Position numbers and translations under genes: made by a program. This document shows, piece by piece, positions 18,304-23,237 of a stretch of DNA of 64,000 bases. Under the pieces are notes generated by a model, which was not told the origin of the DNA, searched no databases, and saw only the letters and a list, made by a program, of their open reading frames with translations. The number at the start of each line of letters is the position of its first letter. Positions within the stretch are counted from its first letter, which is position 1. This DNA is from Massilia sp. H6 (GTDB lineage Bacteria; Pseudomonadota; Gammaproteobacteria; Burkholderiales; Burkholderiaceae_D). The DNA lies in assembly GCF_024802625.1 (NCBI RefSeq), contig NZ_CP103371.1, forward strand, positions 3,100,001 through 3,164,000. The letters run 5' to 3'.

Positions 18304-19221
18304 CTAGACGGTACCCGGGCGCAGCGGCACGAAATGGCACGATTCCAGCGTTTCGCTGGCCCATTCGCGTTTGCCGATGCGGGTAATGCGTTGCAGGTGC
18401 TGGACCTGGGCGCCAACCGGCGCGACCAGATGCGCACCGATGGCCAGCTGCTCGAGCAGTGCCTGCGGCACTTCGAGGCCCGCAGCTGCCAGGATGATGC
18501 CGTCGAAGGGTGCAACCTGCGGCAAGCCTAGCATACCATCGCCATAATGCAAACGCAGGTTCGAGATTCGCAAGGGACGCAGGTTGGTCTTGGCCAGCTC
18601 GTGCAGGGACTTGATGCGCTCGATCGAATAGACTTCGCGCGCGACGCAGGCAAGCACCGCCGCCTGGTAGCCGCAGCCGGTGCCGATCTCGAGCACCCTG
18701 CCCAGTTGCGCACCGGCCGGGGTCGAGGCGTTCATGACTTCGATCATGCGCGCCACGATATACGGCTGCGAAATCGTCTGCTGGTGCCCGATCGGCAGCG
18801 AAGCGTCAACATATGCCTGGCCCGACATGGCCGGTTCGATGAACAGGTGGCGCGCAACAGCTTGCATGGCGGCCAGCACCTGGCTATCACGCACGCCCTG
18901 GCGCGCGACGCGCCCGACCATGGCGCGCCGCACCGCCTCTGACGCCATCAGTTCGGAGCGCTGCACGCTCGGCGCGCTCGGCGTGTGCGTGACCGCATAG
19001 CCCGGCGCGCGCGGCGAGGGCGAAGGCGCCATTGGCGCCAGGGCGGAGCCACCGACAAACGCGGTGCGGGCGGCGTTGCGGGTGGCGGTTTGCGGGGTCG
19101 CCACCGGCACCGGCGCGCGCAGGTTGTTGGGGCTGCCCGGGTTGCGACGATCGCCCCCGGTAACCGAGGAAAGTGGCAGCGGAAAGGTGCTGCGGCGCTC
19201 GGTGCTGCGGTCTTCGCTCAT
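18304..19221 (-). CDS. pcm: Protein-L-isoaspartate O-methyltransferase
   Basis: The 305-residue protein has a C-terminal PIMT domain with SAM motif [16 protein letters not shown] and upstream [19 protein letters not shown]. It repairs isoaspartyl damage in proteins. The first 90 or so residues are a low-complexity Pro/Ser/Arg-rich extension absent from E. coli Pcm but common in related Burkholderiales. The start is the ATG overlapping the surE TGA by four bases (ATGA), indicating coupling. Confidence 0.92.
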
Positions 19222-19949
19222 ACGATCTCCCGCAGCAGGTCGAGCTGGGTCTTGTGGGTCAGGTCTACTTGCAGCGGGGTGATCGACACGCAGCCTTGTG
19301 CGGTCGCGTGGAAATCGGTGCCTGCGCCGGCATCGCGGCATGCACCCGGCGCGCCGATCCAGAAGATCTCGCGGCCGCGCGGGTCCTGTGAACGAATCAC
19401 CGGTTCGGACTGGTGGCGGCGCCCGAGGCGCGCCGGCGTCAGCGGTCCGATCTGTTCGTAGGGCAGGTTCGGGATATTGACGTTGAACAGGAAGGGCAGA
19501 TCGAGCTTGTCGAAGCGGCGCTCGACGATCTCGCGCGCCACGCGCGCGGCGGCGTCGATGTGGGCCCAGCCGGGGTGCACCTGTGAAAACGCGATCGCCG
19601 GAATGCCGTACAGGTAAGCCTCGGTGGCGGCGGCAACGGTACCTGAATACAGCGTGTCGTCACCCATGTTCTGGCCATTATTGATGCCGGAAACGACCAG
19701 GTCGGGCGGCGCCTCCATCATCGCCAGGGCGATATGGACGCAATCGGTCGGGGTGCCGTTTACAAAATGAAAACCATTCGCGGCGCGCTGGACCGACAAT
19801 GGACGATCGAGCGACAAGGAATTCGACGCGCCCGAGCGGTTACTGTCGGGCGCGAATACAACGATGTCGGCGATTGCGGACAAGGCCTCGGCCAGCGCAC
19901 TGATACCAGGCGCCAGGTAGCCGTCATCGTTACTGATAAGAATTCGCAT
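19218..19949 (-). CDS. surE: SurE, 5'/3'-nucleotidase
   Basis: The 243-residue metal-dependent nucleotidase acts on nucleoside monophosphates and short polyphosphate. The N-terminal metal motif [10 protein letters not shown], the [10 protein letters not shown] segment and [11 protein letters not shown] are all present. It heads surE-pcm-nlpD-rpoS, a conserved stationary-phase cluster. The 111 bases upstream contain an AT-rich patch likely to hold its promoter. Confidence 0.96.
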
Positions 19950-20060: not shown

Positions 20061-22445
20061 CTAATGCAGCGCCGCGGGGTTGTCGCGATCCGATCCGAAC
20101 AGGGCACCCTCGAGTGAGGCGAGCTCGTCTTGGGTAAAGGCCAGCAAGGCATCCTTGTCCCCATCCTGCCGGTACACCTGCTTGATCAGCGCCGCGCCGC
20201 GCCGCCGCAGCGGATGTGCCACGCTCGCGCGCAGCACCAACTGGCGCAGCCTGTCGGCCAGCGCGCGCGCCTCGCGCCGGCTGTGGCGTTCGAGCAGGTC
20301 GTGGAGTTGCGCGAGCATGCCTTGGAGGTCGTCGGATGCCGGTTGGCCTGCGCCTGCGTAGCGGCCGCGCGGGGTACTGGCACAATAGCGTTCTTGCAAG
20401 ACTGGTCCGGTGCGCGCAGCCGAATCACCGGCAGCCGTGCCGCCCCCGCTGCTGCCGCCGGCTTCTTCGAGGCGCTGGCGCAGGTCGGCCACCCGCCCGC
20501 GCAGCCGGCGCGCGGCCTCTTCTTCGCCCTGCTGGCCCAGCGTGGATGCCAGCCGCAACTGGATGCTGAGGGTATCGGGATGACTGGCGCCGAGGTGGCG
20601 CTCGCGGGTCCAGGCCAGCGATTCCTGGATGCGGCGCACTGCCGCCAGGTCGCCCTGCGCCGCCAGGATGTCGGCCAGCGCTTCGCGCGCCTGCAAGGTC
20701 GGGGCGGCGTCGGCGCCGTCGTGGCGTTCGCGCGCACGCAGTACGGATTCGAGCAGCCGCCGCGCATTGCCCAGGTCGCCCATTTCGCCGAGCAGCTGGG
20801 CCAGCCGCTGGCTGCAGCGCAGCGTGTCGTCGTGTTCGCCTCCCTGCAAGCAGCGGCGCCCATCCAGCACGCGTTCGCACAGCACGCGCGCGCGGTCGAA
20901 CTCGTGCTGTCCGGCCAGGGTCACGGCCAGGTCTTCGAGGCTGTCGAGGGTGGCGACATGGGTATCGCCCCACAAGCGCTCGCAGATGGCTACCACCTGC
21001 TCGTGCAGCGCCAGCGCGCGCTCGCCCTCGCCGAGCTGGCCGAGCACGCGCGCCAGGCGCGAGCGCGCCGCCAGCGTGTCGGGATGCTCGGCGCCGACAC
21101 TGCGCGCACAGCCCTGCGCCAGCAACTCGTAGTCGCGGCGCGCCTCGTGCAGGCGACCAGCGCCATGCTGCAGCGCCGCCAGCAGGCGCAGCCCCGCGCG
21201 CGACTGGGCATGGTCCTGGCCCAGCGCTGCGCGCCGCAGCGCCAGGCTTTCGGCGAGGTAGTCGGCAGCCTCGCTGGTGCGGCCTTCGTCGCGGCACAAC
21301 ACGCCCAGCCGCGCCAGGCTGGCCGCCAGCGCCACTGAAGAAGCAAGCGCGGCATCGGGAACGCGCGCGCGCTCGATCTCCCTGCGCAGACGCACTTCGG
21401 CCAGCGAATGCCAGGGGAAGTCGCCTTGCCTGAACCAGGACAGCAGGCAGGCGGCCGGGCGCGCCAGCGCGCGCCAGTCGGCGCCGGGGCCGGCAATGGC
21501 CAGCGCGTCGGCCAGCGGCAGCTGGAGTTCGTCGAACCAGCTGTCCAGGCGCAAACGGGTCATGCCGTAGGCGGCGCGCAGCAGCGCCTCGAGGCGCGGC
21601 TGGTAGCCCGCCAGGCCCTGGCTGCTATCGCCGCGCCGCCAGCGCTGGCCCGGGTCGCTGCGCGCGCCCTCGGCGCTGCAGGCCATCGGGTAGACCAGCA
21701 GCGGGCGTTGTTCGTCTTCGTGGGTACAGCGGTAGTCGATGGCGCGCCGTACCACGCCCTCCAGGCCATCGAGGCTGCCTGGCGCTGGCGTGAACAGGCC
21801 CACGATGCGGTCGGGCAGCAGCGTGGTGCAGACGCTGACGCTGGCCGAGCGCCCGCCCCGGCTGGCAATGAGCACATGGCTGAAATGGCGCCGCATGCGG
21901 GCGGCAAAGCGGCGTAACAGCGCCGGGCAGGCGTCGAACAGGGCATCCCAGTCGAGCCGCTCGGCGCGATCGGGGTAGGTGTCGTCAAAGCGCCCGGCGC
22001 GCATCAGGTACAGCCGATGGCGGCCATCGGCGCGCTCGATGTAGCGGCGCCAGTCGACCGAATCGAGCACGGCATCGGCCAGCGCTTCGCCGCAATCGCC
22101 ATGGGCGCCGCGCTGGAACTCGCGCTGGACCTGCAGCCGTTCGCGCAGCGCGGCGACATATTCGGCCAGGCCGGGCGGGTGCTCCGGGTGCTCCGGGTGA
22201 TCCTGGGCGGCGCCCTCGTCGTGGGCCGGCGCGGCATCTTGACCTGCGTAGGCGTGCAGCGAGGGCGCATCGAGGTCCCAGTCGATCATGAGGACCGGTC
22301 CCGCCATTGGCTCGCCCGCCAACTGCAGCGCCATGGCGGCCAGCAGGCCGTTGCGGGCGGGCCCGCCTTCGTAGGAATACAAGGTAGTGATTGCACCGGG
22401 ATTATCCAGCGGTGGAAGCAGGGTCGTGAGCCCGTTCTTGTCCAT
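20061..22445 (-). CDS. KGGVGR-variant ATPase-like protein with TPR repeats
   Basis: The 794-residue protein begins ITTLYSYEGGPARNG (19-33) and has IDWDLDAP (54-61). This closely resembles the YSYKGGVGRT...VDWDLEAPGLH start of MinD/ParA-like proteins found next to TIR proteins, but the P-loop lysine is replaced by Glu26. Residues about 345-665 form six or seven kinesin-light-chain-type TPR repeats (HPDTLxxxxxLAxxLxxxG pattern). The C-terminal 130 residues are helical and charged. Start chosen at the second ATG because AGGAGG sits four bases upstream, with eight bases from the TIR gene stop. It probably acts as a scaffold or sensor with the TIR protein. That is inference. Confidence 0.75.
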   Translation of the reverse strand: MDKNGLTTLLPPLDNPGAITTLYSYEGGPARNGLLAAMALQLAGEPMAGPVLMIDWDLDAPSLHAYAGQDAAPAHDEGAAQDHPEHPEHPPGLAEYVAALRERLQVQREFQRGAHGDCGEALADAVLDSVDWRRYIERADGRHRLYLMRAGRFDDTYPDRAERLDWDALFDACPALLRRFAARMRRHFSHVLIASRGGRSASVSVCTTLLPDRIVGLFTPAPGSLDGLEGVVRRAIDYRCTHEDEQRPLLVYPMACSAEGARSDPGQRWRRGDSSQGLAGYQPRLEALLRAAYGMTRLRLDSWFDELQLPLADALAIAGPGADWRALARPAACLLSWFRQGDFPWHSLAEVRLRREIERARVPDAALASSVALAASLARLGVLCRDEGRTSEAADYLAESLALRRAALGQDHAQSRAGLRLLAALQHGAGRLHEARRDYELLAQGCARSVGAEHPDTLAARSRLARVLGQLGEGERALALHEQVVAICERLWGDTHVATLDSLEDLAVTLAGQHEFDRARVLCERVLDGRRCLQGGEHDDTLRCSQRLAQLLGEMGDLGNARRLLESVLRARERHDGADAAPTLQAREALADILAAQGDLAAVRRIQESLAWTRERHLGASHPDTLSIQLRLASTLGQQGEEEAARRLRGRVADLRQRLEEAGGSSGGGTAAGDSAARTGPVLQERYCASTPRGRYAGAGQPASDDLQGMLAQLHDLLERHSRREARALADRLRQLVLRASVAHPLRRRGAALIKQVYRQDGDKDALLAFTQDELASLEGALFGSDRDNPAALH

Positions 22446-22453
22446 GTTCCTCC

Positions 22454-23062
22454 TCATTTTTTCGGGAATGCCAGCTCAGGCAGCGCGCGCCACTCAGGTG
22501 GGACATCGGGAAGCACGAATTGGTTGCAGTCGTGGTTGGGTGGCGTATGCTTTTTTTGGCATTGGTAATGCAGCGCGATCCGTTTGACCATCTTGTCAAT
22601 GTCTGGCAAGAAGTCCGGGTTAGATTTCAGGTCGGCGGTCGCCATCGTGAAGTGAGAAAAGTCCACGTAGAAGCTGTTCTCGGTAATTTGCGACGGCAGC
22701 GAATCGGGGTGCCGGGTCATGATCACCGGAATGATCAGGTGGCTCGGCAAGGGGTACCAGGTAGCGCGTTCGGCTTCGAGCAGGCGCATGGCTGCGTATT
22801 CGCGCCGCGTATAGGCATGCGCCTCGTATTTCGGGGTGTAGATCAGGATCATGCAGACGCTCTCGCACATGGCGCGCGCGATCTTGCGGTCCAGGTCGTC
22901 CCCTCCGCCCAGCTGCTCGGTGTCGATGAACAGCTCGTCTTCGTTGTCGAAGTAAGGTTCGAGATAGCAGCGCAGCGCGTCGGCCAGGGCGGTCTTGAAC
23001 CGGTTCATCAGGTCGTGCCTGCCATGTGCGTAGCTGAAGAAACACCCGTAACGGATCGCCAT
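22454..23062 (-). CDS. TIR-domain protein
   Basis: The 202-residue protein has the TIR signature CFFSYAHG at 7-14, an IDTEQLGGGDDL segment (46-57) and YTPKYEAHAYTRREYAAM (75-92). Glu88 sits where the catalytic glutamate of NAD-consuming TIR domains is found. There is no signal peptide or membrane segment, so it should be cytoplasmic. The start is ATG with GGGAG six bases upstream. It is first in a two-gene unit with the TPR protein and divergent from the quinone oxidoreductase. It could be an NADase effector or an FxsC-like adaptor, and activity cannot be told from sequence alone. Confidence 0.78.
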   Translation of the reverse strand: MAIRYGCFFSYAHGRHDLMNRFKTALADALRCYLEPYFDNEDELFIDTEQLGGGDDLDRKIARAMCESVCMILIYTPKYEAHAYTRREYAAMRLLEAERATWYPLPSHLIIPVIMTRHPDSLPSQITENSFYVDFSHFTMATADLKSNPDFLPDIDKMVKRIALHYQCQKKHTPPNHDCNQFVLPDVPPEWRALPELAFPKK

Positions 23063-23237
23063 TGCATGCTCCCATTCCAATTTCCCGAGGCGTACCGTTT
23101 GACTCTAGCGCTGCCGACCTCAGCCACTTTGCGGGGGCACAAGCGCGCCGGCGGCCTGGTCGGCATCGGCGCCGAGTGGTCTTCAGGCATAATTCCGCCG
23201 ATTAATGAATCGAGGTAGCGGACATGAAAGAGAGCAA

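Follow-up and report, generated by a model that had tools for sequence, protein, structure and literature searches.

A 64,000-nucleotide stretch of the Massilia sp. H6 genome (contig NZ_CP103371.1, positions 3,100,001 to 3,164,000; referred to here as the window) carries a gene for a TIR-domain protein that is directly followed by a gene for a protein with a MinD-like domain and tetratricopeptide repeats (TPRs), which we call the partner. We give an even chance to the idea that this pair is a lineage-core, two-gene TIR module that is conditionally expressed from its own activated promoter. This idea is based on the fixed locus of the pair, the joint presence and joint loss of the two genes, the constraint on a TIR protein with an invariant glutamate (Glu), the decay of the P-loop in the partner, and a conserved promoter-like element that is missing from pair-less loci. 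The pair has the look of an NAD-cleaving enzyme of the immune type with its partner; because it occupies one fixed spot in nearly every species sampled from this soil-bacterial clade, it behaves like a core function and not like a swappable antivirus weapon. Bacterial TIR proteins have been studied mostly as immune effectors; a constrained TIR gene that sits at one fixed locus over several genera and has its own conserved promoter-like element would offer a clean way to test nonsacrificial TIR or NAD signaling. Natural variants are at hand for such work, namely, intact and decayed P-loops, partners that lack TPRs, one TIR protein that lacks a partner, and five genomes of the same genus that lack a working pair.

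The pair occupies a fixed locus next to surE

As claimed in a first-pass annotation of this DNA, the window encodes a 202-amino-acid TIR protein and then a 794-amino-acid MinD-like/TPR protein, with an 8-base gap between the two genes (Table 1). The 794-amino-acid product is obtained when translation starts at the ATG behind AGGAGG, 8 bases past the TIR stop codon; an alternative ATG four codons upstream produces a 4-base overlap with the end of the TIR gene and a product of 798 amino acids. Both reading frames were conserved in dozens of species, with ratios of nonsynonymous to synonymous substitution rates (dN/dS) well below 1, which excludes chance open reading frames (ORFs).

A scan of genome contigs yielded 211 stretches, 133 of which encoded a relative, and the best 80 of these were retained for locus counts. 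The 80 loci came from Massilia/Telluria, Duganella, Rugamonas, Pseudoduganella, and one Herbaspirillum-labeled entry, and the rest were labeled only as Oxalobacteraceae, Burkholderiaceae, or Pseudomonadota. The nearest fetched locus among these best 80 of 133 relatives was that of Telluria aromaticivorans (94% TIR identity), and the host of the pair falls within the Massilia/Telluria group. The partner gene directly followed the TIR gene in 78 of the 80 loci, and the contigs of the other two (L046 and L048) ended inside the TIR gene. The pair was flanked by qor or dinG upstream and by surE-pcm-nlpD-rpoS downstream. In 72 of the 80 loci, surE came after the pair, and the remaining eight contigs stopped before reaching it. 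Thus, surE was present in all 72 loci that were sufficiently long, which is the invariable housekeeping context, devoid of a defense link, that the annotation had named as evidence against a defense role.

TABLE 1 Features of the TIR-partner locus in the window
Feature	Position	Strand	Basis or remark
TIR-domain protein, 202 amino acids	22454..23062	-	Pfam TIR_2; FFSYAHG; putative catalytic Glu88 in YTRREYAAM
Partner protein, 794 amino acids: degenerate MinD-like (KGGVGR-variant) domain, TPR array, and C-terminal segment	20061..22445	-	Pfam, NCBIfam
Partner MinD-like KGGVGR-variant domain, residues 19-234	21744..22391	-	Below-cutoff NF047398 match and P-loop comparison
Partner TPR array, residues ~374-657	20475..21326	-	Pfam TPR_10/TPR_12, tblastn, alignment; gone in one Massilia subclade
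Partner C-terminal segment, residues ~690-785	20091..20378	-	tblastn pieces, alignment
Operator-like dyad TTGTGCCCCCGCAA upstream of TIR gene	23129..23142	-	TTG-N8-CAA conservation
TAGAGT, -10-like hexamer 21 bp past dyad	23102..23107	-	Conserved spacing
surE, next gene downstream of pair	19218..19949	-	Immediately preceded by its own conserved GGTAAAAT-type element

The two genes also occurred together, a co-occurrence that the annotation had proposed to score. The TIR gene was found in 164 of 392 family genomes, including 51 of the 56 same-genus genomes and 6 of 44 genera (one of these via a weak match in G119 only). The partner N-domain was found in 161 of the 392 genomes, including 51 of the same 56 same-genus genomes and 5 of the 44 genera. 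The two listings, compared by eye, differed at three genomes. In the case of G119, the weak match (E = 9e-4) was to a different protein. In G372, a single natural deletion fused the N-terminal part of the TIR protein (approximately 65 residues) with the C-terminal TPRs of the partner. In G244, an intact TIR gene with YTRRE had no partner, and surE was immediately next to it. In wider searches with a TIR profile (E <= 1e-6), 3 of 300 order genomes and 2 of 299 phylum genomes were matched, every one of the same genus. No TIR match was found at E <= 1e-5 among 72,556 plasmid records.

The annotation had also proposed to score a defense-island location, and neither synteny, the plasmid search, nor PADLOC models run on the flanks placed the pair in a defense island or a mobile context. 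PADLOC models matched 4 of 10 flanking proteins (a sigma factor, DinG, and methyltransferases); these matches are generic look-alikes, and none of the flanking genes is a convincing defense neighbor. Placement in a mobile defense island was rejected on the basis of synteny, vertical trees (see below), and the housekeeping flanks.

Vertical inheritance and constraint

The five same-genus genomes without the TIR gene and the partner N-domain were informative about gain and loss. In four of them, surE adjoined qor or dinG, and a search of the intervening DNA at E <= 1 detected no remnant. In the fifth (G361; L108:4793-5140), a remnant of the partner TPRs (56% identity over 116 amino acids) lay between surE and qor, and the TIR gene and partner N-domain were gone; this remnant indicates that the pair was lost there. 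Six loci from other genera lacked the pair before surE. In two of these (g13 and g32), surE was beside qor, in one, dinG was ~1.1 kb away, and in three, neither qor nor dinG was within the fetched stretch. The simplest history, for which we infer that the outgroup state is ancestral, is that a two-gene cassette was gained once and then lost a few times.

Median dN/dS values were calculated by the NG86 method in four groups, using 54 of the 82 TIR rows after exclusion of rows that had short matches or contained N or stop codons. The TIR medians (0.06 to 0.13) were similar to those of the housekeeping neighbors (SurE, 0.08 to 0.12; RpoS, 0.08 to 0.17; DinG, 0.07 to 0.15; and Pcm, 0.15 to 0.21). 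The medians for the partner N-domain were 0.17 in Duganella and 0.28 to 0.37 in the three Massilia groups. In the 63 species that had all of the genes, the TIR tree shared 32 of 60 splits with the SurE/DinG/RpoS/Pcm tree and the partner tree shared 42 of 60, versus at most 2 after label shuffles. The conservation of the pair is vertical and housekeeping-like.

A constrained TIR protein and a partner with a decayed P-loop

The TIR protein matched Pfam TIR_2 with an E value of 1.5e-9 (38.9 bits, over the curated cutoff of 28). The sequence FFSYAHG is located at the N terminus, and TRREYAAM contains Glu88. This Glu was invariant in the 82 orthologues, and the residue four positions earlier was tyrosine (Tyr) in 80 of them. 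The best match among solved structures was the TIR domain protein 7uxr_A (E = 0.41), in which Glu88 aligned with the Glu of WTEYE, presumably the catalytic residue. Glu88 is the conserved Glu that is expected of a TIR NADase, with a putative catalytic role that draws on the 7uxr_A alignment, and the family assignment together with Glu88 suggests that the TIR protein carries out NAD+ chemistry. When 27 genomes were scanned with TIR_2, 25 had a match and the two that did not were genomes without the pair. The TIR protein of the pair was the sole TIR_2 protein common to all pair-bearing genomes tested, and 6 of the 25 genomes held additional TIR_2 proteins.

The N-domain of the partner matched the AAA_KGGVGR family (NF047398, NCBIfam) with an E value of 3.5e-17 and 63.3 bits, which is below the cutoff of 90; all 26 relatives tested matched this family at E <= 1e-5, the best at 7.7e-38. 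Pfam TPR_10 matched six stretches of the partner (2e-29), and no NB-ARC/STAND ATPase match was found in it with Pfam at E <= 1. In the window, the P-loop sequence is YSYEGGPARN, with IDWDLDAP after it; this P-loop is a degenerate form of KGGVGRT and not an intact KGGxGR(T/S). Specifically, the signature lysine (Lys), the P-loop glycine, and the threonine were all substituted in the window lineage. Of 78 loci, 29 (Duganella-type) had Lys as the first P-loop residue, and 49 had a different residue there; the latter comprised all 47 partner-bearing loci of L002-L050 (Massilia-type) plus L069 and L073. In a 63-row tree, KGGxGR was present in 25 rows, and the first residue was Glu in 26, aspartate (Asp) in 11, and arginine in 1; two switches between Lys and not-Lys suffice to explain this distribution. 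Judged from these motifs, the nucleotide-binding loop of the partner is decayed in Massilia.

The group with an Asp-type P-loop (n = 13) had partners of only 406 to 544 amino acids. The TPR array was gone in Asp-type partners, as indicated by tblastn and by three aligned members (L023, L025, and L040). The C-terminal segment was retained by several TPR-less Massilia relatives, including several Asp-type partners, and was missing from others, based on tblastn and alignment. In Massilia sp. YIM B02443 (L014:10615-10815), codon 67 of the partner gene as assembled is an in-frame stop, and the TIR frame is open.

A conserved promoter-like element precedes the pair

Of 83 loci, 80 had the pattern TTG-N8-CAA no more than 130 bp from the TIR start, compared to 3.2 loci expected from order-1 shuffles. 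In the three loci that missed it, the first base differed, as judged by eye. A -10-like hexamer (TAGAGT, TACAGT, or TAAAGT) followed the dyad with a spacing of 21 bp in 75 of the 80 loci and 22 bp in the other 5. The dyad was centered near -41, which corresponds to the class II arrangement for activators of the CRP/FNR type.

In all 11 pair-less loci, the 400-bp stretch ahead of surE contained no such dyad. A GGTAAAAT-type element was located directly before surE in all 72 pair-bearing loci with an aligned surE start and, with small variations, in all 11 pair-less loci (by eye). Because surE has its own GGTAAAAT-type element and the dyad was missing from the pair-less loci, the pair seems, as far as the DNA sequence indicates, to have its own promoter. 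The same two observations weaken the alternative that the pair is part of the surE-pcm-nlpD-rpoS operon. Read-through from the pair into surE may occur, since just one weak terminator-like match was present on that strand near the gap.

A search of the H6 genome with the dyad pattern produced five matches, including the site upstream of the TIR gene, versus none in the reversed control, and no coherent regulon emerged. Of the further matches, one lies before a Flp-pilus Tad-like gene and another before a Sel1-repeat gene. The dyad plus -10-like pattern at L121:1501-1541 (C1:2142071-2142111 of the H6 genome) lies ~50 bp before the Flp-pilus Tad-like ORF. According to Haack 2016 (PMC5080296), strain HH102 has a quorum-regulated Flp pilus cluster.

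The same source describes a TIR gene, Jab_2c19720, that belongs to the core genome except in J. sp. Marseille, has a JAI-1 motif, and showed a log-fold change of -2.29 in the autoinducer-synthase (quorum-sensing) mutant of HH01. The TIR protein of the pair was the only TIR_2 protein common to all pair-bearing genomes that we tested, so Jab_2c19720 is probably its orthologue. Among the literature matches listed, the likely orthologue was found only in PMC5080296 and FxSxx systems only in PMC7159879; there was no mention of TIR in the passages of PMC3566124 examined. We considered the JAI-1 motif as the conserved element before the TIR gene and rejected it: an exact motif was present within 400 bp in 3 of 83 loci, and TTGAN6TCAA was present within 130 bp in none of the 83. 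With one mismatch allowed, the motif was found in 29 of 83 loci within 60 to 350 bp, a count without a control. The conserved dyad and the JAI-1 motif have only the outer TTG...CAA in common.

Model for the pair and points against it

In the explanation that we favor, the ancestor of the Massilia/Duganella/Rugamonas-type clade probably gained the pair once, through insertion next to surE, and the pair has descended vertically since then. In response to a signal of growth state or stress, an activator, perhaps of the CRP/FNR type, would turn the pair on. The TPR partner would bind the TIR protein and help to place or gate it, and the TIR domain would cut NAD+ or make an NAD-derived signal at a tolerable level. 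Ancestrally, the partner may have been an NTP-dependent switch that became a nucleotide-independent scaffold in Massilia. A more specific proposal is that a TIR enzyme, ordinarily a patchily distributed and sacrificial immune effector, has turned into a core signaling enzyme of a bacterial clade. Controlled by a dedicated activator and encoded next to the rpoS operon, it would make an NAD-derived signal in stationary phase or under quorum conditions, and its partner, once an NTP switch, would have lost nucleotide binding and become a scaffold across the Massilia lineage. This proposal is a tentative one that we consider less likely than not.

Several observations weigh against a core signaling module. 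The pair was missing from 5 of the 56 same-genus genomes and is therefore dispensable. Because of the relatedness of the loci, the dyad count of 80 of 83 does not represent 80 independent events. The published quorum-sensing motif, TTGAN6/7TCAA, was found within 400 bp before the TIR gene in only 3 of 83 loci, and in those three it overlapped the apparent -10 element of qor. In addition, the HH01 list in PMC5080296 contains neither a neighbor of Jab_2c19720 nor rpoS. The sequence likeness of the TIR protein to solved TIR domains is weak, as the E value for 7uxr_A indicates. Finally, related KGG-variant domains elsewhere are plasmid borne, and some adjoin conflict-type genes, which makes a defense origin of the pair likely.

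The annotation had suggested a stand-alone defense or stress-signaling unit. The surE context and vertical inheritance speak against the defense half of this suggestion; the signaling or stress half may hold and is now the better one.

Competing explanations and related systems

Thoeris-type and other TIR NADases are effectors of bacterial immunity. The TIR protein of the pair resembles them in its Pfam assignment and in having a conserved Glu at the expected site. In contrast to Thoeris, the pair has no ThsA-type partner, its Thoeris matches in PADLOC and NCBIfam are weak and partial (the best PADLOC match of the pair proteins was 0.003), and it is not mobile or patchy in the clade. Nevertheless, a serious contender, albeit an unlikely one, is that the pair is an abortive-infection system against phages that has come to fixation in the clade, with the partner sensing infection and the TIR protein depleting NAD+. 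Clade-wide fixation alone is no proof against a defense role, and the faster evolution of the partner relative to the TIR protein fits such a system. PMC7159879 places TIR proteins and MinD-like or TPR proteins among the components of predicted conflict systems. The contention rests mainly on related KGG-variant domains that are found on rhizobial and cyanobacterial plasmids, one of them fused to TIR and some beside conflict-type genes. However, the pair sits at a single housekeeping locus, is inherited vertically, has no convincing defense neighbors, and has a TIR protein that was unmatched among the plasmid records; moreover, a whole lineage lost the P-loop of the sensor-like partner yet kept the gene.

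The partner resembles the KGGVGR-variant family in the match of its N-domain, and Duganella-type members have KGGTGRT, whereas the window-lineage P-loop is substituted and the window protein scores below the family cutoff. Two rhizobial plasmid proteins, a KGG-TIR fusion (WP_331375610, L099) and a KGG ATPase beside an MqsA-like gene (L100), share ~30 to 34% N-domain identity with a Duganella-type partner. They differ from it in being a single polypeptide or having another partner, in being plasmid borne, and in lacking TPRs by Pfam at E <= 0.01. The fusion (L099:5995-8199) is a Sinorhizobium plasmid protein in which a KGG-type N-domain is joined to TIR_2, and more annotated TIR genes lie within 6 kb. 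A second, canonical KGGVGRT ATPase was present on a separate contig of one genome (L139; G018, contig C3:3214-3774), behind a small CPMC-motif gene, an arrangement that resembles the Rhizobium phaseoli locus with the MqsA-like gene (L100). Among 30 phylum-wide KGG-variant loci, a motif filter recognized the KGG protein in 6, and a crude motif test detected no TIR within ~1.5 kb of those 6. No annotated TIR neighbor was present in the five regions examined around FxsT-labeled plasmid genes.

It is also conceivable, but improbable in our view, that the TIR domain is a nonenzymatic interaction domain and that the two proteins assemble into a structural or regulatory complex. The lack of a strong match to solved TIR structures and the Tyr four positions before Glu88, where 7uxr_A has tryptophan, are consistent with this idea; the invariance of Glu88 and its alignment with the WTEYE Glu, presumably the catalytic one, argue against it.

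The pair also resembles the actinobacterial FxSxx-COOH peptide systems (FxsC, NF040588; FxsT, NF040586), in that both include a TIR-like protein and a protein that matches the FxSxx TPR model. At E <= 1e-5, FxsC_Nterm was matched by all 28 TIR relatives and FxSxx_TPR by 23 of 26 partner relatives. These matches bear out the claim of a genuine TIR plus KGG-variant/TPR pair with kinship to FxsC/FxsT, with the window proteins themselves far below the cutoffs (36 of 130 bits for FxsC_Nterm and 126 of 300 bits for FxSxx_TPR). PMC7159879 links inactive MinD-like domains and TIR/AP-ATPase/TPR proteins to FxSxx systems and describes a standalone system that has an inactive MinD-like domain and is related to FxsC/FxsT. 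The pair differs from FxSxx-COOH systems in these low scores, in the absence of NB-ARC/STAND ATPase matches, in its fixed core locus in Oxalobacteraceae, and in the lack of an above-cutoff match to FxsB, the radical S-adenosylmethionine maturase. Specifically, none of 25 genomes reached the FxsB cutoff and the H6 genome had no match whatever, in agreement with the predicted absence of a maturase. Below-cutoff FxsB matches were found in 6 of the 25 genomes, and the best (G148, 269 of 370 bits) was ~450 kb from the pair of that genome. The low scores and the lack of an above-cutoff FxsB weakened an assignment of the pair to the FxSxx ribosomally synthesized and posttranslationally modified peptides. 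A diverged FxSxx-COOH system with an unrecognized peptide and maturase could draw on the family matches and on the strong below-cutoff FxsB match in G148, but this rival is strongly weakened by the same scores, and the stretch between qor/dinG and surE showed no third gene alongside the pair, in a comparison that included no search aimed at a short precursor. We consider it very improbable.

A toxin-antitoxin pair with the partner as the antitoxin would fit the short gene spacing and joint loss, but it is scarcely credible because the intact TIR gene persists without a partner in G244, the partner N-domain occurs without the TIR gene in none of the 392 family genomes, and the TIR protein is better conserved than the partner.

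Other features of the locus

In Massilia sp. ZL223 (L005:13050-15735), the gap between the partner gene and surE is enlarged by ~2.7 kb, and this additional DNA carries a long ORF on the minus strand. In Duganella-type loci (e.g., L051 and L068) and in outgroup loci L115 and L116, a conserved ACGNNCGT-centered palindrome, possibly a TetR-type operator, was seen by eye just before qor.

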